A stretch of DNA of 45,331 bases, taken from Chthonomonadales bacterium. Lineage in GTDB: Bacteria > Armatimonadota > Chthonomonadetes > Chthonomonadales > CAJBBX01. The translations under genes and the position numbers were made by a program. The DNA lies in contig JABWBA010000021.1 in the NCBI GenBank assembly GCA_013360745.1, positions 1 through 45,331 of the forward strand. The letters run 5' to 3'. The notes under the pieces are model-generated. The model ran no database searches and was not told the origin of the DNA. It saw only the letters and a program-made list of their open reading frames with translations. Numbering within the stretch: position 1 is the first letter of the stretch; each line of letters begins with the position of its first letter. This document shows, piece by piece, positions 35,522-45,331 of the stretch.

Positions 35522-37408
35522 CTACCTCTCGATCGCTCCGATATCGGCAACCCCGGACGACGGTCGGGGTCGGCGCCGCTGGTCATCCCGAACAAGCCGT
35601 ACCGTACTCGAGAGCTCCCGCGCGTAGACGGTGACTTGATCGCCGAGTCGCCCCGTCGGGAACGTGGACCAGAACTCGTCGTTGAGGCCCGCCGGCCCCA
35701 ATCGCCCACCGATCGCCGTGTCCAGGTCCCGCCAGAACGATATCCAGGGAGCGTTGACCGCCTCTGCAGGCCACGTAACGCGGGGCCCGTACCACGTCGT
35801 CCCCTTCTTATCGCCGAACTGGGCGCCGAAGTTATGCCCCAGTATCGATCCGTAACGGGAGCGTAGGTGGGCGAGGAGGTGATTCAGGAAGTCGTCCTCG
35901 ACCGTTCCCCAACCCTTATATCCCGCGCGATAGTACCGGACGTCGTACTTTGCCCGATCGATTCGGTTCGAGGCTGCGCTTCCGGGCGGATATGCGACAA
36001 CCGCCATCTGCCCCGAGTCGGTTCCGGCGGAAACCGCGACAGCATGCCGTTCGACTCCGCCGAGATCGAGGGCCTGGGCGATCGGCACGTCGAGGAGATC
36101 GCCGGTCATGGGGCAATGCTTCCGGTTCAGGTCATCCCATTCGGGAACCGGCGCGAGTATCTGTGAGAATTCCATGAAACCGACGACGTTGTAGCCCCGG
36201 CTGTAGAAGCCGAGGAGCGAGCCTGCGAACCAGTCCTCCGGCGCACCGTTGAGCCTGTTGCCGACGACGATGCTGTGCTGGAGATGCACTTCCTCGACGG
36301 TGTGAGCATTGCCGATCGTCGCGGCGACCCCTCCCCCGCCCATGTTCGGCTTTCCGCTGAATACGGCTGCGTGGCCGGTCACCTCGTTTTCCGCGATGGT
36401 GCAGCTCGTTACGTTGAGCGATCCGCCGCCGATGTAAACCCCGCCGCCGCGATAGTAATGAGGGCCGGCTTCGGGCAGGCCCGGATGGTCCTCGACCAGA
36501 TTCCTGGCGATGGTGCAGTTCTCCAGGCTCATCGTCGCAAGGTTGGCAGGACCTCCCGATAACGTGAAGATGCCGCCGCCGTAGGCGTGCTGCCCCCGAA
36601 CCCGGTTGCCGCTGATGGCGGAGCGGACGATGCGCGTGTTGTTGCCGAACCCGCCGCCGTTATCGGCGCCGCCCACGCTGTAGATCCCGCCGCCCGCGCC
36701 TCCGTATCCTTCGACGACGTTCCCGCTGATGACGGAATCCTCGATATCCAGACCGTTGGCGTAGATCCCCCCTCCGAACGCCCCCCGATCACGACTGGCG
36801 TTGAGATCGCCCAAACACCGGTTGTCAGTGAGCGTACAGCGTCGGAGCCTGGCGCGCCCCCATACGGCCAGACCGGCGCCCCGTGCGAGCGTATACTGCT
36901 GCGCCCCGCCGCTAATGGCCATGCCGTGCGATCGCCCGCCGCGGACCGTGACATTGGACATCGTGAGGTTGCCGTATACCGCGAGAACGCGCGCCGGATT
37001 GACATCGCCGCCCGACCATTGGAGCGTGATGCCGTCGGGCAGCTCCGACGCGTCGATGGTCACATCGCCCCGAACATAGAGCGACGAAGGCCCGTAATCC
37101 CTGTCCTGATAACCCGAGAAGGTATTGCCGGCGTACACCTCGCCCTTGAGGACCGAATGCGCCGCGCCGATCTCCTGCAGGTTGATCGTGCCGCCGTTGA
37201 GCGACGGGCGGAAGACGATCACATCGCCGCTCGCAGCGCGGGTCAACGCCGCACGCAGCGTCATGGGGCCTCGATGCGGTATCGGGCCATCGGTGAGCGA
37301 GTCCACGACGATCTGCTTCCCGGATCTTCCGCCGCCGCCGCAGCCCGTCAGAAAACAAGCCGCGGCCCACAATACAAACCATCCCGGCTTTATGCTCCTG
37401 TAGCCCAT
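35522..37408 (-). CDS. Beta-helix lipoprotein
   Basis: 628 residues from the ATG at 37408, with GAGGAGG seven bases upstream. The signal ends in FLTGC, so C23 is a likely lipid anchor; a GGGG linker follows. From about 40 the protein has the right-handed parallel beta-helix pattern (VVDSLTDG, MTLRAALTRAASGDVIVF, then repeated SNVTVRGG, CTLTDNRC, SVISGNVV, SAISGNRV, CTIARNLV and CTIAENEV turns with glycine-rich loops). It matches the choice-of-anchor Q / polymorphic outer membrane type. It ends in GVADIGAIER, also typical. Such proteins often bind or cut surface polysaccharides. No catalytic residue is evident. Confidence 0.85.
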   Translation of the reverse strand: MGYRSIKPGWFVLWAAACFLTGCGGGGRSGKQIVVDSLTDGPIPHRGPMTLRAALTRAASGDVIVFRPSLNGGTINLQEIGAAHSVLKGEVYAGNTFSGYQDRDYGPSSLYVRGDVTIDASELPDGITLQWSGGDVNPARVLAVYGNLTMSNVTVRGGRSHGMAISGGAQQYTLARGAGLAVWGRARLRRCTLTDNRCLGDLNASRDRGAFGGGIYANGLDIEDSVISGNVVEGYGGAGGGIYSVGGADNGGGFGNNTRIVRSAISGNRVRGQHAYGGGIFTLSGGPANLATMSLENCTIARNLVEDHPGLPEAGPHYYRGGGVYIGGGSLNVTSCTIAENEVTGHAAVFSGKPNMGGGGVAATIGNAHTVEEVHLQHSIVVGNRLNGAPEDWFAGSLLGFYSRGYNVVGFMEFSQILAPVPEWDDLNRKHCPMTGDLLDVPIAQALDLGGVERHAVAVSAGTDSGQMAVVAYPPGSAASNRIDRAKYDVRYYRAGYKGWGTVEDDFLNHLLAHLRSRYGSILGHNFGAQFGDKKGTTWYGPRVTWPAEAVNAPWISFWRDLDTAIGGRLGPAGLNDEFWSTFPTGRLGDQVTVYARELSSTVRLVRDDQRRRPRPSSGVADIGAIER

Positions 37409-37511
37409 CTCGTTGCCTCCTCGTACGGGATGCTGCCAGCCGTCTGCCGGATTCGATTCGGAGTCTCCCATACGATATCCTTGCGCTCGTAGGACGGACG
37501 CTGTCGAGGTC

Positions 37512-39161
37512 TTAGCCCCCGCCCCATGCCTTGCTCGCCCAGGTCCCCATGGCCTCGTACTTGTCCTCCCACGTGGTGTACATCGCTCCGATGATGCCGG
37601 GGACGTCCCGCACAGCAGCCTGCCACTGGACGATGGCCTCGCCCGTGTCGTCCGTATCGTAGTAGCCCGACAGGATCTGCTTCAAACCGAGATCGGCAAA
37701 GAACCGGCAGTTCTTGCCCATCAACCCTCCATGCCAGTTGACGATGCCGACGTCCTTCGCGAGGCCCTCCCACGAGCCCTTGAGCGAGCCGTTGACCGCG
37801 TAGTACCCGTCGACGGCGTTGTGCATCGGGTCGAACATGTCGCTCCAGACCCAGATCCCCGCATCGGGACGGTGCTCCCGGATGATCGAAGCCGCTCGTC
37901 GTACGTTATCCGCAAGGAGTTGGCCCGGCGTCCGCTTGCGGCTGCGACAGAGCCAGCACCAGTTCATCACCCTCATCTCGTCGTGCGACATGAAGAACGC
38001 CTCAGGGCTCAAGAGCTCATCGGCGCGGCGCACCTCCTCGCGCCAGTCTTCGAAGATCTTCGGCTCGCTGATGCAGCTGGTCAATCGGTCCTCGTAGATA
38101 AGGATGGGATGGTAGTAGTCCACCCGGAGCTGTTCGCCCTCCCGGATGGCCGTGCCCGGCTTCAGCCGGATGACCGGACCTTCGTGGAAGGGGATCCAGG
38201 GATGGAGCAGCGGGTCGCGGATCGGTTCGTAATCCTTGCCCTCCTCGTAGACCATGCCCCGGTCACCCCGGACGGTCACCGGACACCCGGGCCGACGGAG
38301 GACGTTCACCAACCCCAGCTCATCGATGCTCAGGTCGTCCCACCAGAGCCTCCCGTCCTTGCCGCCCCAGGACCCGAGGTAGAGGTTCGCCTCGGTATGG
38401 TCGAAGCTGTTGAAGACGATATCGTACCGTTTCCAGTCCTGGGTGCGATCGACGCGGAACGTCTGAAAGCTGATCTGCCGACTCGTGTCGCGGGAAAGGA
38501 CCTTAACCTCGGGATTCGCGGGCGAGAGCCCTTCTGTTCTAACCCAGACGGAGATGTGGTATTGCCGGAAGGGGCGGAGGACGATCGGCTGCATGATCCG
38601 GCAGAGCTGGTTGGCGTTGCGGCTTATGTTCTCCATGCGGAGGGACGCCTGTCCTCCGTGCTTTACCTCCCGATCGACGAAGGTCGTCACCCCCTCATCG
38701 TCCTGCCATTGCCACCCCAGACAGCGATCGCCCGACGCCTCCTCGAAACCGCCGTTCCGGACGGTAGTCGGTATGTCCTGAACATGGGTCGCAATGCCGT
38801 CTTTGACCACAAAGAGCGCTCCCATGACCGGCGTCCCTTCGGCGTAGTTCCGATCCCGTGACCCGCCCATGACGATGGCGATGAGATCGAGGCCGTTCGC
38901 CTTCGCGGCCTCCCGAAGGGCCGGCGCTCGTTCCGGCGCGACGTTGTAGGATAGTGCGACGCCGTTGTAGCCCGCCGCCTTTGCCCTCGGCAGCCGCGCG
39001 ATGACCCGATCCACCTCCTTCGGATCCGACATGTCTCGCCAGACGAACAGCCAGCGGTGCGCGAGGGCGCGGCGCGATTGCGCCGGCACGGTTCCCGGCC
39101 ATGCGAGGCAGCCGATCGCGGCGATCATCAGGGCGATGCGGCCCGGGCGATTGAGTCTCAT
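37512..39161 (-). CDS. Secreted GH20-like TIM-barrel protein, paralogue of 4434 gene
   Basis: 549 residues from the ATG at 39161, with GGAG eight bases upstream. A signal peptide spans NRPGRIALMIAAIGCLAWPGTVPAQ. It follows the same plan as the protein at 4434-6134: barrel start with KAAGYNGVAL, the NGGFEE sandwich insert, a short linker with GCPVTVRGDRG, then MSHDEMRV (H393, D394, E395), NWCWLC, IWVWSDMFDP and a C-terminal VQWQAAVRDVPGIIGAMYTTW matching VEGVMYTTW in the other copy. The HDEM and WC-x-L-C motifs are conserved in both, so they probably matter for activity. The substrate is unknown. The next leftward gene starts 103 bp downstream. Confidence 0.82.
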   Translation of the reverse strand: MRLNRPGRIALMIAAIGCLAWPGTVPAQSRRALAHRWLFVWRDMSDPKEVDRVIARLPRAKAAGYNGVALSYNVAPERAPALREAAKANGLDLIAIVMGGSRDRNYAEGTPVMGALFVVKDGIATHVQDIPTTVRNGGFEEASGDRCLGWQWQDDEGVTTFVDREVKHGGQASLRMENISRNANQLCRIMQPIVLRPFRQYHISVWVRTEGLSPANPEVKVLSRDTSRQISFQTFRVDRTQDWKRYDIVFNSFDHTEANLYLGSWGGKDGRLWWDDLSIDELGLVNVLRRPGCPVTVRGDRGMVYEEGKDYEPIRDPLLHPWIPFHEGPVIRLKPGTAIREGEQLRVDYYHPILIYEDRLTSCISEPKIFEDWREEVRRADELLSPEAFFMSHDEMRVMNWCWLCRSRKRTPGQLLADNVRRAASIIREHRPDAGIWVWSDMFDPMHNAVDGYYAVNGSLKGSWEGLAKDVGIVNWHGGLMGKNCRFFADLGLKQILSGYYDTDDTGEAIVQWQAAVRDVPGIIGAMYTTWEDKYEAMGTWASKAWGGG

Positions 39162-39350
39162 GGAGGGCGCTCCGTTTCTGAACTGGGCTTCTGTTGTGGT
39201 TCGCTTCTGCATCGGTCCCGGTTTACCCTGCCTGTGCGGCGCAGGAAAGCGGGGTCCTCGTCCAGTGGATACGACCCGGTCGATGTGGCTGCCGTAGCCT
39301 GCGGCCGTGCATCGCGTGCTGGCGGAACGGATCGCGGGGTATGGTTAGGC

Positions 39351-40025
39351 GTGCGCACATGGCTCCCGCATCGCATCCGGCCGACGCTGGCCGCAGCAGT
39401 GGTCGCGCTTGGCGGCATCGTTCCTCTCCGCGCTGCCTCGAACGATCGTGAGCGGGAACGGGCCGTTCCGATCGTCGATAGCCGCATGACCCGGAGCGAG
39501 GCGTTGCGGGGTTCTCGGGCGCCGGCGCGGATTCTGCGGGCGCAGCGGCTCGTAACCGTACGCTATCGCTCGTTCGACGGGCGGCTGCACGAAGGCCAGA
39601 TCGTGATCCATCGGGACCTCGCGAGCGATATCGTCGCCATATTCCGTGAGATCGAGCGGATCGGCTTCCCCGTCGCACGAGTCGTCCCGATCGTCCGGTA
39701 CGGATGGTCCGATGCGCGTTCGATGGCCGACAACAACACCTCGGGCTTCAACTACCGGGCAAAGCCCAGGGGCGGCGGGCTCTCGAAGCACGCGTTCGGC
39801 ATGGCCGTGGATATCAACCCGATGCAGAATCCGTACATCGTCGGCTCGACGCGTCTGCCGCCGGGGGCTCGACGGGACCTGCGCAAAGCGGGAACCTTCG
39901 CCGGCGGGCGAATCGTCGCGGCGTTCGAGAGGCGCGGATGGACCTGGGGCGGACGATATCGGCGGGGCAAGGACTGGCAGCACTTCAGCAAATCCGTCCG
40001 CAGGCAGTCGGGGCGGTCCAAATAG
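39351..40025 (+). CDS. D-alanyl-D-alanine carboxypeptidase-like M15 peptidase
   Basis: 224 residues from a GTG at 39351. The choice is based on the signal-like N-terminus it gives (RTWLPHRIRPTLAAAVVALGG). The motif S-x-H-x-x-G-x-A-x-D is present as SKHAFGMAVD, with H147 and D154, and the third zinc ligand is H211 in DWQHF. This is the M15C type (LD- or DD-carboxypeptidase acting on peptidoglycan stem peptides). The preceding FNYRAKPRGGGLS also fits. SD is poor; TATGGT lies within ten bases before the start. The GH20-like gene diverges 189 bp upstream. It is 75 bp before the propeller gene. Confidence 0.87.
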   Translation: MRTWLPHRIRPTLAAAVVALGGIVPLRAASNDRERERAVPIVDSRMTRSEALRGSRAPARILRAQRLVTVRYRSFDGRLHEGQIVIHRDLASDIVAIFREIERIGFPVARVVPIVRYGWSDARSMADNNTSGFNYRAKPRGGGLSKHAFGMAVDINPMQNPYIVGSTRLPPGARRDLRKAGTFAGGRIVAAFERRGWTWGGRYRRGKDWQHFSKSVRRQSGRSK

Positions 40026-40100: not shown

Positions 40101-41519
40101 GTGGCCATGTTCGTCTTACGCACAGCGATACGTTATGGAGCGCCGATACTGGTCGCCCTGTCGGCCACGGCGGCCGTTGGCTGGTGGGTCGTCGGCTATT
40201 GGTTCCCCCCTCCGGCGCCGCTTCGCCCTCTCGGCAACGAGCAGTTTCGGGCCCTCCAGGCCTCCGCGCCTCAGGCTCCTGCGGCCACAGGCGCCAGCTT
40301 CAACCGGCCGGAGGCGCAGGTCCCTGAGACGGCAGGCCTGTGGCCGTGGTTTCGCGGCGCTGATCGCTCCAATATCGCCGAGACAGGCGCGGCAGCCTTC
40401 TTCGCTTGGACCGACGCCGCGCCGCCTCCGACGGTCTGGTCGGCTCAGATGGGCGAGGGCTACGCCGCGCCCGCCGTCCGAAACAGCCGCGTCTACGTCA
40501 TCGACTATGATCAGGCCGGCCAATCGGACGCCGTCCGCTGTTTCGCTCTCGGGACGGGCGAGGAGATCTGGCGCCGCTCCTATCCGGTTACGGTGAAACG
40601 GAACCACGGCATGTCGCGCACGATCCCGGCGGTGACGGATAAGTATGTGGTGACGCTCGGCCCAAAATGCCATCTGACCTGTCTCGACGCCCTGACCGGA
40701 ACGATCGTCTGGCAACACGATCTTCCTGCTGAGTTCGGCGTGACGGTGCCCGAATGGTATGCCGGACAGTGCCCGCTGATCGACGGCGACAGGGTCATCC
40801 TCGGCACGGGCGGCAAAGGTCTCGTCACGGCCTTCAATCTCGCGACGGGCGCGACGATATGGCAGACGCCGAACCCCCGGAACTGGACGATGACCCACTC
40901 GTCGGTCACGCCGGTCGAGATCGGAGGGGTACGCCAGTACGTTTGGTGCGGCAGCGGCGGGATTGCCGGGGTCGCCGCGGCCGACGGCAAGCTGTTGTGG
41001 GAGAACCCGGACTGGGTCATCAGTACAGCGACGGTACCGACGCCCATCGCCCTCGGCCCCGATCGGCTGTTCCTCAGCGGCGGGTACGACTCGGGCGCGG
41101 CCTTTCTAAAGGTCACCGCGTCGGCCGGGGCGTTCAAGGCTACGATTGAGAAGCGGCTGCCGGCGAGCGTGTTCGGATCGGAGCAGCAGACGCCGATCCT
41201 CTACAAGGATCATATTTACGGGGTGAAGCCGGGGGGCCAGCTGGTTTGCCTCGACCGTACCGGCAAGCTCCTGTGGAATAGCGGCACGGATCGGTTCGGG
41301 CTCGGCCCCTATATCATCACCGACGGCATGATCCTCGCCATGAGCGACAGCGGAACCCTCATGAGCGTGCGGGCGGAGCCGACCGGGTACGTGCGAACCG
41401 GCAAGGCGAAGGTGCTGGAGGGTCCTGAGGCGTGGGGTCCCATGGCCCAGGCTGGCCCGTTCCTCCTCGCACGGGATCTTCGGAAGATGGTCTGTCTCAA
41501 TATCGGCGCGAAGCGGTAA
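40101..41519 (+). CDS. PQQ-type beta-propeller membrane-anchored protein
   Basis: 472 residues. One N-terminal transmembrane helix (YGAPILVALSATAAVGWWVVGYW) then a proline-rich linker puts the propeller outside the cytoplasm. Blades contain PQQ-like repeats: RCFALGTGEEIWRR, TCLDALTGTIVWQHD, TAFNLATGATIWQT, VAAADGKLLWEN and VCLDRTGKLLWNS. PWFRGADRSNIAETG before the first blade is usual for BamB-like/PQQ enzymes in glycan- or alcohol-oxidising bacteria. Whether it binds PQQ cannot be told. GTG at 40101 is used, with AGAGGA 11 bases upstream; the ATG two codons later is an alternative. It precedes the iron-sulfur genes and may be their partner. Confidence 0.87.
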   Translation: MAMFVLRTAIRYGAPILVALSATAAVGWWVVGYWFPPPAPLRPLGNEQFRALQASAPQAPAATGASFNRPEAQVPETAGLWPWFRGADRSNIAETGAAAFFAWTDAAPPPTVWSAQMGEGYAAPAVRNSRVYVIDYDQAGQSDAVRCFALGTGEEIWRRSYPVTVKRNHGMSRTIPAVTDKYVVTLGPKCHLTCLDALTGTIVWQHDLPAEFGVTVPEWYAGQCPLIDGDRVILGTGGKGLVTAFNLATGATIWQTPNPRNWTMTHSSVTPVEIGGVRQYVWCGSGGIAGVAAADGKLLWENPDWVISTATVPTPIALGPDRLFLSGGYDSGAAFLKVTASAGAFKATIEKRLPASVFGSEQQTPILYKDHIYGVKPGGQLVCLDRTGKLLWNSGTDRFGLGPYIITDGMILAMSDSGTLMSVRAEPTGYVRTGKAKVLEGPEAWGPMAQAGPFLLARDLRKMVCLNIGAKR

Positions 41520-41559
41520 CGGAGAGCGGATTGTCGTCGTCCGTTCGTATAGGATGTAT

Positions 41560-41586
41560 CAGCGATCGCGTTTGCGCGAGACGCTG
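41560..41586 (+). other. Hairpin in the gap before the Tat lipoprotein gene
   Basis: An inner stem TCGCG/CGCGA with loop TTTG is extended by CAGCG/CGCTG on the outside, with one small bulge. It sits in a 103-bp gap. It could be a weak terminator of the propeller gene or a 5' leader structure. Confidence 0.4.
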
Positions 41587-41622
41587 ATGTGGACATCGGA
41601 CCCACGGGAGGCCAGATCGGCC

Positions 41623-42600
41623 ATGGATAACGAACAGCACGGAAAGCGCTGGACACGGCGCGAGGCGCTGATCGGCGGCGCGGCGGTCGTGTCGGCCGCG
41701 TCGCTTCTGACAGGGTGCGCGAACCGGCCCGATACCTCGGCCCTGCGCAAACGGGCCGACGCTGTGCCCGAAACCGACCCGGCCCTCGTCCAGTACCGGG
41801 AGATCGGCCGAATGGAGCCGGGCATCGAGGAACCGACCGGGATCGCGGTCACGGCGGACGGCCCGGTCTGGTTTGTCGGTAAGGACCGGATGGTCCTGTA
41901 TCGGGACGACGGCCCCGGCGAGTCGCAGCCCCTGCCCGGCCGGGCGTCGTGTGTCGCGGTGCATGGCGACAGGCTCTTCGTCGGCATCGGCAGCAGCGTC
42001 TACGTCCGGTCCGGCGACGGCCCGCTGGCCCAATGGCTCGATCTCGGCGAGCGGTCGGTGGTCACGTGCATCACGCCGACGGCGGACCAGGTCCTGATCG
42101 CCGATTCGGGCGAACGACGGATCGTCCGCTGTGCCGCCGACGGCAGGACGCTGGGATATCTGTGTGAGAAGGACGCATCCCGGGGATACACGGGCCTTGT
42201 CGTCCCCAGCCCGCACCTCGACGTCGTGGTCGGGGCGGATCACGCCATCCATGTGGTCAATCCCGGCACGCACACCATCGAGGTCTACGACCCCGACGGC
42301 AACCCCCGCTATACATGGGGGGACAGTTCGCAGGCGATGGAAGGATTCTGCGGCTGCTGCAACCCGACCGATATCGCCCTGCTGGAGGACGGCCGATACG
42401 TCACGTCTGAGAAGGGCATACCGAGAGTGAAGGTCTATTCGGCGCTCGGGCATTTCGAAGCCGTCGTCACGGGCCCCGAAGGCCTGAGCGCGGGCGCTGT
42501 CGGGCTGGATGTGGCTGGACTGCCCGACGGCAGGATTGCCGTCCTCGATCCGGGGATCGGCGCCGTCCGCATCTTCGAGAGGAAGGGTGACCATGCATAG
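41623..42600 (+). CDS. Tat-exported lipoprotein, NHL-type propeller with CGCC motif
   Basis: 325 residues from the ATG at 41623, with GGGAGG nine bases upstream. RR at 12-13 (WTRREALIGGAAVV) and a lipobox LTGC with C32 make it a Tat lipoprotein. The body is an NHL/SMP-30-like propeller: EPTGIAVTADGPVWFVG, DQVLIADSGERRIVRC, HTIEVYDPDGNPRYTWG. Residues 242-248 read FCGCCNP, three cysteines in four positions, followed by TDIALLEDGRYVTSEKGIPRVKVYS. Export by Tat in folded form and the cysteines suggest a bound metal or cluster, but this is inference. Its stop overlaps the next gene by eight bases. Confidence 0.87.
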   Translation: MDNEQHGKRWTRREALIGGAAVVSAASLLTGCANRPDTSALRKRADAVPETDPALVQYREIGRMEPGIEEPTGIAVTADGPVWFVGKDRMVLYRDDGPGESQPLPGRASCVAVHGDRLFVGIGSSVYVRSGDGPLAQWLDLGERSVVTCITPTADQVLIADSGERRIVRCAADGRTLGYLCEKDASRGYTGLVVPSPHLDVVVGADHAIHVVNPGTHTIEVYDPDGNPRYTWGDSSQAMEGFCGCCNPTDIALLEDGRYVTSEKGIPRVKVYSALGHFEAVVTGPEGLSAGAVGLDVAGLPDGRIAVLDPGIGAVRIFERKGDHA

Positions 42601-42814
42601 GCGAACCATCTCCCGCCGGGAGTGGCTCCGGAGCGGCCTCCGCTGGACGGTCTTTTCGGCGATCGTCGGAGGCGCGACGGCCTTGATCCGGAGGCCCGGC
42701 GACTGCACCATCGCCCCCGACTGCGTCAGCTGCGGCCTGAAGGCGCGCTGCACCAGGCCCCGAGCTATCGAGACAAGGAGGATCGAGTCCCATGGCACAA
42801 CAGCCCGGTCCTGA
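42593..42814 (+). CDS. Small Tat-signal protein with four cysteines
   Basis: 73 residues. Its ATG overlaps the previous stop (ATGCATAG) and has AGAGGAAGGG upstream. SRREWLRSGLRWTVFSAIVGGATALIRR is a Tat-type N-terminus. The short mature part has C-x5-C-x2-C-x5-C (CTIAPDCVSCGLKARC) and a basic tail. It is too small for a normal ferredoxin; it may hold one iron-sulfur or zinc site, or a signal anchor may keep it in the membrane. The last 23 bases overlap the ferredoxin gene. I know no family name. Confidence 0.7.
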   Translation: MHRRTISRREWLRSGLRWTVFSAIVGGATALIRRPGDCTIAPDCVSCGLKARCTRPRAIETRRIESHGTTARS

Positions 42815-43364
42815 CAAAAAGACGCGGCGTGACCTGCTGGCGGGCGGAGCTCGCCTTGCGGGGGTCGTCTCGGTCGGGTCCCTCCTCACCGCGCTGGCGA
42901 AGGGGAGCAAATCGGAGCCGACCGTCTGGCAGATCGACCCGGAGAAGTGCATCCACTGCGAGCACTGCGCCACCGAATGCGTCGTGAGCCCGTCCGCCGT
43001 CAAGTGCGTCCACTCCTACGCCATCTGCGGCTACTGCAAACTGTGCTTCGGGCTCTTTCTCGATAAGCGGACCGGCAATACGATCACCGCTGAGAACAAC
43101 CGGTGCCCGACGGATGCCATCAAACGGCGGTACATCGAAGATCCGTTCTATGAGATGTACATCGACGAGTCGCTCTGCATCGGCTGCGCGATCTGCGTGA
43201 AGGGGTGCAACAGCTTCGGCAACGGCTCGATGAACCTGCAGATCCGACACGATCGCTGCGTCAACTGCAACGATTGCGCGATCGCGCGGGTCTGTCCCGC
43301 CGACGCCATCATGCGCGTGCCGGTCTCAAGGCCCTATATGATACGAACGCAGCCTCGGGGGTGA
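42792..43364 (+). CDS. Tat-exported ferredoxin with four [4Fe-4S] sites
   Basis: 190 residues, with AAGGAGG before the ATG. KKTRRDLLAGGARLAGV is the Tat signal. Seventeen cysteines include CIHCEHCATEC, CGYCKLC with a distant RCP, CIGCAICVKGC and CVNCNDCAIARVCP. The order and pairing match DmsB/NrfC/PhsB-like electron-transfer subunits with four cubane clusters. It should sit on the outer side of the membrane and pass electrons between an exported enzyme and the membrane protein encoded next. Its TGA overlaps the GTG of that gene. Confidence 0.93.
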   Translation: MAQQPGPDKKTRRDLLAGGARLAGVVSVGSLLTALAKGSKSEPTVWQIDPEKCIHCEHCATECVVSPSAVKCVHSYAICGYCKLCFGLFLDKRTGNTITAENNRCPTDAIKRRYIEDPFYEMYIDESLCIGCAICVKGCNSFGNGSMNLQIRHDRCVNCNDCAIARVCPADAIMRVPVSRPYMIRTQPRG

Positions 43365-44737
43365 ACGGACGTTTTCGAGCCGGCAGGACTTCTCCCATCG
43401 CAGGTCCCGGCTCCGCAATAACCGCGTCGGGACGGGGGCTTCTGGGCCGGGTGTGGAGGGTCGCCGCCGTGCTGGCGACCGCCGTGCTGAGCGTCGCCAT
43501 CTGGGCGCAGGAAGAGCAGAAGAGACAGCCTCCTCCGGAGTTCACTTCCGGGTACTTCCCCCCGACACCGACGGAGCCGCAGCCGCGACTCGATACGTTC
43601 GCCTACGTCGATGTGGTCCTGCTCATCGTCGTCCTCAGCCTGACGGCGTGGTTCCTCCTGCGGGTCCGTTCTCGGCCGATGGTCCGCCTGCTCGCGATCT
43701 TCTCGGCGCTCTACTTCGGTTTCTATCGTCTCGGGTGCGTCTGCTCCGTCGGCTCGATCCAGAACGTCGCGCTGGCCCTCGGCGATTCCAACTATGCCCT
43801 TCCGCTCACGGTCGGCGCGTTCTTCGCGATCCCGCTGGCGTTCGCGCTCTTCTTCGGCCGGGTGTTCTGCGCAGCTGCCTGCCCGCTCGGCGCGATCCAG
43901 GACCTCGTCGTGCTCCGCCCGAAGCAGACGAGCAAGACGCTGGACCATATCCTGGGCGTCATCCCCTATCTGTATCTGGGCCTCGGTGTGGCGCTGGCCT
44001 ATACGGGAGCGCAGTTCCTTATCTGTCAGTTCGATCCGTTCATCTCCATCTATCGCCTGGGCGGCCCGCAGGGCGTCCTCCTGTTCGGCGGCGCCATGCT
44101 GGCCATCGGGACCGTGATCGGGCGGCCGTATTGCCGCTATCTGTGCCCCTACAGCGTCCTGCTCCGATGGGCGTCCGTCCTGGCGCGGTGGAAGGTCAAG
44201 ATCACCCCGGGCGAATGCCTCCACTGCCATCTTTGCGCCGACGAATGTCCCTTCGGGCAGATCCATCCGCCGACCAGGTTCGACCCTCCCACGGATCTCG
44301 CGACCGCGCGACCAAGGCTCATCCGATCGCTCATCGCCCTCCCATTCCTCATCGTTCTCTTCGCATGGATGGGCCACGCCCTCGCGCCGGTCGTGAGCCG
44401 GTCGCATCGCGACGTCGCCCTTGCCGATCGGCTGTGGCTGGAGGAGAAGGGGAGGGTCCGCGGAACGACCGAGGAGACCGACGCCTTTCGCGCCCAGGCC
44501 CTGCCGAACGCCGAGGGCTACCGTCGGGCGGTCGTCGCCCGCAAGCGCATCGATCTGGCGATGACGTGGCTGGGGGTCTGGTTCGGCATCGTGATCGGCG
44601 GCAAGCTGATCCTGCTGAACGTTCGACGCCGTCGGGAGGACTACGAGACCGACCGGAGCGGCTGCGTCGGCTGCGCCCGGTGTTATCGATCGTGCCCGGT
44701 TGAGCACGAGCGGCTGGGCTGGATCACCCTGGAATGA
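43361..44737 (+). CDS. NapH/NosR-like membrane iron-sulfur protein
   Basis: 458 residues from a GTG at 43361 (GTGA overlap; longer frames run through the ferredoxin gene). An N-terminal hydrophobic segment and four or five more spans surround cysteine motifs: GCVCSVG at about 125, CAAACPLGAIQD, GRPYCRYLCPYS, the cytosolic-type 4Fe-4S motif CLHCHLCADECPFG and, near the C-terminus, CVGCARCYRSCP. This is the family that takes electrons from quinol or ferredoxin and delivers them across the membrane (NapH, NosR, CcoG relatives). With the Tat ferredoxin it likely forms the membrane module of an extracytoplasmic redox complex. Confidence 0.93.
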   Translation: MNGRFRAGRTSPIAGPGSAITASGRGLLGRVWRVAAVLATAVLSVAIWAQEEQKRQPPPEFTSGYFPPTPTEPQPRLDTFAYVDVVLLIVVLSLTAWFLLRVRSRPMVRLLAIFSALYFGFYRLGCVCSVGSIQNVALALGDSNYALPLTVGAFFAIPLAFALFFGRVFCAAACPLGAIQDLVVLRPKQTSKTLDHILGVIPYLYLGLGVALAYTGAQFLICQFDPFISIYRLGGPQGVLLFGGAMLAIGTVIGRPYCRYLCPYSVLLRWASVLARWKVKITPGECLHCHLCADECPFGQIHPPTRFDPPTDLATARPRLIRSLIALPFLIVLFAWMGHALAPVVSRSHRDVALADRLWLEEKGRVRGTTEETDAFRAQALPNAEGYRRAVVARKRIDLAMTWLGVWFGIVIGGKLILLNVRRRREDYETDRSGCVGCARCYRSCPVEHERLGWITLE

Positions 44738-45331
44738 GCGCACCCGCCCCGCCTGGCGACGCCGGCCGCTTCCGACCGGCCCGATGGACCATGTACGTAG
44801 CCCTTGCCTACTGCGCCGTGGTCCTGATCCTGATGGCGGTGAACTCGATCGCCAGCCGTTCCGCCGATCCTCTGGACGCGATACGACTCGAGGGCTTGCG
44901 CCACGACCTCACCCTCCGGCCGAACGACGAGAAACTGCGCAACGAGGTGCGCGCCGAGGATGTTCGAGTGCGTCGACAGTACCTCCGGCATCGTGATTTC
45001 GCCGTGCGGGGAGCCTGGCTGCTGCTGGTGGGCATCATCGTTTTCCTGGTCACTTCGGAGCTGGCGCGCAAGGATCGTCCGGACGTGCCGATGCCCAATC
45101 GGGCCGCTTCCGAGCGCGCCCGTGCTGCGGCGTACGCGACGTTCCGCGGGATCGTCAGCATCGGAGGGCTCCTCATGGGCACGCTGCTCACGCTGCACGT
45201 GCTGGCGCGCCATGACCTGGTGGCGGAATACGCCAGGGAGGCCGCCCACGCCCCGCCGAAAGCCCGCGGGAGCGCCGCCGGGCCGGCGAGCGGAGCAGCC
45301 GCTCAGCCTCCTCCCGTCGCAGGTCTGCCCC
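44734..45331 (+). CDS. Membrane protein, partial at window edge
   Basis: The ATG overlaps the previous stop (ATGA) and the frame is open for 199 codons to the right edge. Membrane spans are at about residues 20-38 (MYVALAYCAVVLILMAV), 93-110 (WLLLVGIIVFLVTS) and 147-163. A charged stretch between the first two (RLEGLRHDLTLRPNDEKLRNEVRAEDVRVRRQYL) looks helical, perhaps coiled coil. The visible end is alanine- and proline-rich. No family recognised. Its overlap puts it in the iron-sulfur operon as a probable subunit or partner. Confidence 0.75.
   Translation, partial: MSAPAPPGDAGRFRPARWTMYVALAYCAVVLILMAVNSIASRSADPLDAIRLEGLRHDLTLRPNDEKLRNEVRAEDVRVRRQYLRHRDFAVRGAWLLLVGIIVFLVTSELARKDRPDVPMPNRAASERARAAAYATFRGIVSIGGLLMGTLLTLHVLARHDLVAEYAREAAHAPPKARGSAAGPASGAAAQPPPVAGLP

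Follow-up and report, generated by a model that had tools for sequence, protein, structure and literature searches.

Described systems and the gene set of the window

The Bfu family, which takes in HydABC, Nfn-Bfu and Wor-Bfu, is defined by the BfuB and BfuC domains, with conservation of the B2-site histidine of a pentacoordinate cluster; its enzymes are described as reversible, 17 of its 57 clades carry no assignment, and the text makes no mention of NapH, pyrroloquinoline quinone (PQQ) or propellers (Schut et al., 2022, PMC9304861). Outside the cytosol, NapH-like proteins are modularly tied to extracytosolic redox proteins in flavinylated systems, and the survey also reports NapH-like proteins clustered with ExaA, an alcohol oxidase (PMC8238504). 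Here we describe a gene set at the right end of a 45,331-nucleotide contig from a Chthonomonadales bacterium (JABWBA010000021.1, assembly GCA_013360745.1; G000:C105 in our numbering), the whole of which we refer to as the window. By their sequence matches the parts come from known families (Bfu, NapH-like, BamB/PQQ fold and NHL), and they make up an operon that is conserved in eight bacterial groups and can be read as a full electron path that starts at NADH/ferredoxin and ends outside the inner membrane. No description of this gene set, and no name or function assigned to it, was found in the open-access literature, subscription papers and preprints lying outside the scope of the search. The genes in the window are the following.

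40101-41519, + strand: PROP1, a membrane-anchored, predicted eight-bladed propeller of the BamB/PQQ fold (GTG start, N-terminal membrane helix, Pfam PQQ_2 at 2e-28)
~41623-42600, + strand: NHL propeller, a putative twin-arginine translocation (Tat) lipoprotein with CGCC (TRREAL...LLTGC, FCGCC)
42593-42814, + strand: four-cysteine Tat micro-protein of 73 amino acids with a Tat/membrane anchor (SRREWL; C-x5-C-x2-C-x5-C)
42792-43364, + strand: Tat ferredoxin with cysteines for four [4Fe-4S] clusters (Pfam ferredoxin domains)
43361-44737, + strand: NapH/NosR-like membrane iron-sulfur protein (TIGR02163 at 6e-11, under its cut-off)
44734-45331, + strand, running off the edge: 5' part of a third propeller gene (three predicted membrane segments, Pro/Ala-rich linker)

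On re-reading the window, the six open frames listed in a preliminary description of this DNA were recovered in their places, and the overlaps that it had noted at each junction from the Tat lipoprotein gene onward measure 4-23 nucleotides (nt): 8 nt for NHL/micro-protein, 23 nt for micro-protein/ferredoxin, and 4 nt each for ferredoxin/NapH-like and NapH-like/third propeller. Among these genes only the PROP1/NHL junction has a gap, and the NHL gene has further in-frame ATG starts at 41554 and 41587. The NapH-like protein matches Fer4_5 and more 4Fe-4S domains in Pfam and the NHL protein gives sub-threshold matches only, while no match was obtained for the micro-protein in Pfam or NCBIfam, or for the window frame of the third propeller in Pfam. 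The last frame, previously taken for another membrane protein, does contain membrane segments; its identity has to be corrected to the 5' end of the third propeller protein, as it is 41% identical to residues 25-200 of a 668-residue homologue in locus L083, the C-terminal part of which is a PQQ-type propeller.

The set resembles each of the described systems in part. Like NapGH, NosR and MauMN, it has a NapH-like membrane protein with two CxxxCP motifs and C-terminal iron-sulfur motifs, next to a Tat ferredoxin; however, this membrane protein falls under the cut-offs of those families, and the genes after it encode a propeller and a Bfu module where NapA, NosZ or a c-type cytochrome would be expected. 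The modular tie between a NapH-like protein and extracytosolic redox proteins is shared with the flavinylated systems, but Pfam returned no FMN_bind match in the window proteins or in 10 scanned neighbor proteins, which places the set outside the survey definition, for which an FMN-binding domain or ApbE in the cluster is looked for (PMC8238504). It shares with the Bfu enzymes (PMC9304861) both the BfuC and the BfuB domains, here within a fused NuoE-NuoF protein (NuoEF) that also shows the His/Cys pattern of the B2 site. It differs from the described Bfu enzymes in that BfuC and BfuB form one chain and in that the third partner would be the NapH-like protein together with exported propellers.

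Continuation and conservation of the operon

A same-genome search with proteins of relatives showed that contig G000:C70 begins inside the third propeller, where it covers residues 255-667 of the L083 homologue at 49% identity, and that two further genes follow.

C70:14279-16711, - strand: fused NuoE-NuoF (BfuC-BfuB), 810 residues, overlapping the third propeller gene by 4 bases
C70:12665-14233, - strand: BfuA-like iron-sulfur flavoprotein, 522 residues, after the NuoE-NuoF gene

Because the third propeller gene is split between both contigs, we infer that C105 and C70 are adjacent and carry an eight-gene operon between them; their ends have no exact overlap of more than 5 bases and no common 15-mer in the last and first 400 bases. 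The preliminary description had seen an electron-transfer cluster of unrecognised type with no molybdenum, copper or heme enzyme in view, and had called for the next genes to be read and gene order to be compared across genomes. On C70 and in the relatives the next genes encode the BfuC-BfuB fusion and the BfuA-like protein, none of them being a standard catalytic subunit of Nap, Nos or Dms, and the comparison disclosed a block that is conserved together and shares an extra enzyme module (NuoEF and BfuA), all in agreement with that description, in which the NADH/ferredoxin module, the fusion of micro-protein and NHL propeller and the terpenoid genes did not yet figure.

For the comparison, a scan of public genome contigs yielded 66 loci, to which 11 longer regions were added, and all 77 loci and the window were annotated with profiles. 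The window is not counted among the 70 core loci, nor are the seven divergent ones (L058-L060, L062-L064, L066), and a gene was counted as missing from a core locus only where the flank was long enough. The shared order is PROP1, NHL, (micro-protein), ferredoxin, NapH-like, third propeller, NuoEF and BfuA. PROP1 is kept in 60 of 62 core loci, NHL in 63 of 66, NapH-like in 59 of 61, the third propeller in 52 of 54, NuoEF in 41 of 45 and BfuA in 33 of 38. The order from PROP1 through NHL, ferredoxin, NapH-like and third propeller to NuoEF is complete in 32 of the 41 loci with both flanks; among the nine that depart from it, several carry additional propeller copies or have frames that are split. 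Median junctions lie between -4 and +3 nt for PROP1-NHL, ferredoxin-NapH-like, NapH-like-third propeller, third propeller-NuoEF (1 nt) and NuoEF-BfuA in its G5 form; for the G14 form of BfuA the median is -10.5 nt. When six genes are compared over 35 loci, their distance matrices show correlations of 0.88-0.96, to which common species history contributes. Conservation of this kind, as read from the sequences, excludes a chance grouping.

Full sets occur in eight major groups named in the record titles: Armatimonadetes (L002), Opitutae/Verrucomicrobia (L005), Pontiella (L013), KSB1 (L016), Lentisphaerae (L017), Planctomycetales (L023), Hydrogenedens (L034) and Prevotella (L045); Pontiella belongs to the Kiritimatiellae and Prevotella to the Bacteroidetes. 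The distribution is patchy and not universal. The ferredoxin is carried by 13 of 41 relatives, the window's genome included. Within the window's phylum, probably Armatimonadota by its nearest relatives, 45 of 291 genomes have it at E <= 1e-45, as do 61 of 387 in Pontiella's phylum and 1 of 395 in Prevotella's phylum, the last being the query's own; this cut-off was chosen here, counts the ferredoxin and not the whole operon, and has some second-type copies near it. Named carriers, among them Pontiella sulfatireligans, Carboxylicivirga linearis and Plebeiobacterium marinum, make the operon accessible to experiment.

The cytoplasmic Bfu-type module

In NuoEF a thioredoxin-like [2Fe-2S] domain and a second cysteine region near the N-terminus are combined with the flavin mononucleotide (FMN), SLBB and NADH 4Fe-4S domains, and the C-terminal part has two 4Fe-4S motifs. 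In L045 the protein carries PF01512, PF10531, PF10589 and Fer4, the domains by which BfuB is recognized if, as we presume, the InterPro and Pfam definitions correspond, and in the same chain PF01257 at residues 23-166, the domain expected of BfuC. The copy in the window's genome is also matched by NuoE models, and its closest solved relatives are BfuB subunits of bifurcating type: NfnB (9n5u), first at 705 bits and matched over the full length, 9bov_B and 8oh5_B. Across 39 sequences the column of the B2-site histidine is at least 95% conserved, and the stricter pattern H-x4/5-C-x4-C-[KR] matches 30 of the 39.

The BfuA of L083 (G5) contains PF13510 and Fer4/DPD-type domains, in agreement with its assignment as BfuA, while the copy in the window's genome gives HydA- and NfnA-type matches and has an N-terminal [2Fe-2S] motif with further iron-sulfur motifs. 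The alignment of BfuA with 9bov_A falls into two blocks, and a stretch from about 299 to 401-430 of 9bov_A stays unmatched; from the known GltD fold we take this stretch to be the pyridine-nucleotide (NADP-binding) domain. The Bacteroidales form of BfuA (G14 of L045, one protein) has no FAD-domain match. The complete FAD/NADP-binding domain that characterizes the BfuA of Nfn-Bfu was thus not found, and because BfuA lacks this stretch and the Bacteroidales form lacks the FAD domain, NADP is unlikely to be the third substrate of the module.

In the relative G002 a tyrosine phenol-lyase gene (TIGR02618, over cut-off) lies between NuoEF and BfuA in the same direction (L083 1853-3268, - strand). 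The window's genome also has a second NuoE/NuoF-type pair (G000:C98:36933-38934), the NuoF part of which is 57% identical to the L083 NuoEF and which is probably another Bfu-type enzyme of the same genome.

The membrane protein, the ferredoxin and the propellers

In the ferredoxin, 16 cysteines are invariant and a seventeenth is nearly so in an alignment of 23 sequences (L035, L037 and L057 were left out). In 62 NapH-like sequences GCxCxxGxxQN is present in 60, FCxxxCP in 59, CRxxCP in 61, CxxCxLCxxxCP in 59 and CxxCxxCxxxCP in all 62; the conserved GCxC segment is a putative extra relative to NapH. A search of solved structures gave no meaningful relative of the NapH-like protein.

PROP1 and the NHL protein were modelled from alignments of 42 of 49 and 46 of 53 homologues, respectively, giving predicted structures with a predicted local distance difference test score of 89.8 for PROP1 and 91.4 for the NHL propeller. 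Among the 42 PROP1 homologues W81, F84, R85, H169, R173, C224, H266 and W445 are invariant and Q362 nearly so. In the predicted structure G222-Q223-C224-P225, H266/S268, Q362/T364/P365, F399-G402-P403 and W445/P447, all of them invariant or nearly so, directly precede the short first strands of successive blades, and in the NHL protein, on the predicted structure and alignment, F242-G244-C245-C246-N247-P248 directly precedes the inner strand 250-253. In propellers of these folds we take this blade-start position to face the central funnel. GCCNP is found in 63 of the 65 core loci with an NHL gene.

Fold searches recognized propellers, with no enzyme among the matches listed for the NHL protein, whose best matches are NHL domains; PROP1 was assigned the PQQ-dehydrogenase/BamB fold, with sorbose dehydrogenase (4mh1) at Z 30.1, and its search likewise pointed to a propeller fold and not to an enzyme as such. 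PROP1 thus has its fold in common with BamB and the PQQ-dehydrogenases, but it has conserved funnel motifs of its own (HG.SRT, GQCP, HSS, QQTP and WGP) and scores 55.1 bits against a BamB cut-off of 285 and 30.6 bits against a PQQ-dehydrogenase cut-off of 480. Of the 71 loci examined, 65 of them core, 41 core loci encode the micro-protein in a gene of its own, and in 16 a CxxC-x4-C tail on the NHL C-terminus replaces it, as one chain in Bacteroidales; neither form was found in the remaining 14, six of which are divergent. Because of this fusion the cysteines of the micro-protein can be placed at the NHL propeller.

Linked terpenoid genes

Squalene-cyclase-like and/or DUF116-polyprenyl-synthase genes adjoin the core in 20 of the 46 loci whose upstream sequence reaches 8 kb or more, often together with a radical S-adenosylmethionine (SAM) gene and a small ferredoxin. 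DXDDT is present in 20 of 20 cyclases and DDxxD in 18 of 18 synthases. Where the cyclase gene stands directly 5' of PROP1 on the same strand, nine of nine junctions measure 50 nt or less; in other lineages the terpenoid block is on the opposite strand, which suggests that the link survives rearrangement. No function for the fusion of DUF116 with a prenyl synthase was found in the open-access literature. In L045 (1683-7452) and its equivalents the block consists of genes for a ferredoxin, a radical SAM protein, a DUF116-polyprenyl synthase, a small alpha-alpha-toroid protein and a squalene-cyclase-like protein.

A proposed transmembrane conduit

From gene content, order, conservation and motifs read in the sequences, and from the predicted folds of the two propellers, we infer that the products form a complex, and likewise the path and direction of its electrons, bifurcation, its cofactors and redox centers and its substrate. 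The reading we favor, with confidence a little above even, is a transmembrane conduit with outward flow from NADH/ferredoxin to the propellers, by which an extracytoplasmic substrate would be reduced. In the cytoplasm, the BfuC-BfuB chain and BfuA would take electrons from NADH and probably from reduced ferredoxin; the NapH/NosR-like protein would move them over the membrane to the Tat-exported 4x[4Fe-4S] ferredoxin, which may in turn reduce a center formed by the vicinal cysteines at the funnel of the NHL propeller and by the four-cysteine micro-protein. PROP1, with its invariant blade-start residues toward the funnel, is the likely terminal subunit binding substrate or cofactor, and the third propeller may serve as its membrane-anchored partner. 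The substrate could plausibly be an isoprenoid lipid where cyclase or polyprenyl-synthase genes adjoin.

A more specific version of the outward path, which we put forward as possible but tentative, is an undescribed class of extracytoplasmic reductase, in which a Bfu core that confurcates NADH and reduced ferredoxin would, with the membrane potential, drive low-potential electrons by way of the NapH-type protein and the exported ferredoxin into metal- or thiol-centered propellers; these would reduce an isoprenoid lipid or another hard-to-reduce substrate outside the inner membrane. Beyond the cytoplasm such a reductase would do without heme, molybdenum and bound flavin, and the micro-protein would supply part of its redox center. 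If the outward path proves right, the Bfu enzymes gain a class of third partner and anaerobes a means of running chemistry at low potential in their periplasm, and a propeller redox center of a new type is predicted.

Several observations weigh against the outward conduit or its lipid substrate. Bfu enzymes are described as reversible (PMC9304861), so the electrons could run in either direction. Among loci with sufficient flank, 4 of 45 yielded no NuoEF and 5 of 38 no BfuA, and the gap between C105 and C70 is still unclosed in the assembly. The vicinal cysteine pair is not absolute, since two Hydrogenedentota loci (L025, L034) have GCSNP, and none of the propellers was found to have a known site for a catalytic cofactor. 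In 26 of 46 loci the terpenoid genes show no linkage to the core, and searches of the window's genome, run without a positive control, found no cyclase and no DUF116-fused synthase, only ordinary polyprenyl synthases.

Alternative readings

The same parts could carry electrons inward, with a propeller acting as an extracytoplasmic quinoprotein-like dehydrogenase that passes electrons by way of the ferredoxin and the NapH-like protein to the Bfu enzyme, which would reduce NAD+ and ferredoxin. The PQQ-dehydrogenase/BamB fold of PROP1 is consistent with such a dehydrogenase, as are the ExaA clusters and the reversible Bfu reactions described in PMC8238504 and PMC9304861, respectively. PROP1, however, lies far under the PQQ-dehydrogenase cut-offs, and no other redox enzyme is common to the loci in the clusters seen. 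PqqC, moreover, had no match in the window's genome, a weak test in that 14 control genomes also lack it, and exceeded its cut-off in 2 of 41 relatives (G015 and G018), neither of which has the ferredoxin. We consider inward flow unlikely.

The divergent relatives bear on a second alternative. In L059, L060, L062-L064 and L066 the NHL protein has two vicinal cysteine pairs (CCGI and GCCNP), and in the first five of these the NHL, ferredoxin and NapH-like genes are present without NuoEF, which suggests that the three form a reusable trio. A Phosphonate-bd protein with extra cysteines in a Cys-rich N-terminus was found in both divergent loci examined with Pfam (L063, L064), and by reading the neighbors include DsbD/thioredoxin-like (L060) and DsrE/TusA/HdrA-like (L063) genes. 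Judged by these sequences, the first acceptor may alternatively be one that involves thiol or sulfur chemistry. MauM/MauN and NosR, with their roles in maturation, provide a model for a set that supplies electrons for assembly or repair of an exported protein, cofactor or disulfide, with the propellers as scaffolds. The match of the membrane protein to the NapH/MauN family, the company kept by the trio in the divergent loci and the MacB-type ATP-binding cassette genes often found 3' of the core all fit such a role; the core set, on the other hand, has no conserved exported client, and a dedicated Bfu module would be a heavy supply for it, so we rate maturation or repair as more doubtful still than inward flow.

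That the set is an ordinary Nap, Nos or Dms electron module serving a reductase encoded elsewhere is very improbable. NapH and NosR are indeed the nearest named families of the membrane protein, but the molybdopterin family PF00384 matches only NarG and a NuoG frame in the window's genome, which makes ordinary Nap or Dms service unlikely, and no such catalytic gene is common to the loci. NapA was not found with the set in the examined part of the window, on C70 or among common neighbors; NosZ was not seen in the same places, no genome-wide search for it having been made. The set includes no molybdoenzyme and no DmsC/NrfD-type anchor as in Dms or PsrC systems, its membrane protein being of NapH type, and no MauM/NapG model is among the 25 matches listed for the ferredoxin. 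Two independent adjacent operons, one for the exported ferredoxin and propellers and one for a soluble Bfu enzyme, are hardly credible either, for although the five divergent loci carry the trio without NuoEF, 41 of 45 core loci, in records of eight groups, have NuoEF next in line at a median junction of 1 nt.

Other genes of the window and its genome

A NarG-type nitrate reductase alpha subunit gene lies beside a cytochrome c-like gene at G000:C17:4522-6687 (L105), from which the organism may respire nitrate by a separate route. Peptidase_M15_4 genes flank the operon on both sides in the operon direction (window 39390-40022, + strand; L102 11784-12863, - strand), and to the left of the operon two large predicted proteins are encoded on the opposite strand (window 35522-37471 and 37512-39212, both - strand).

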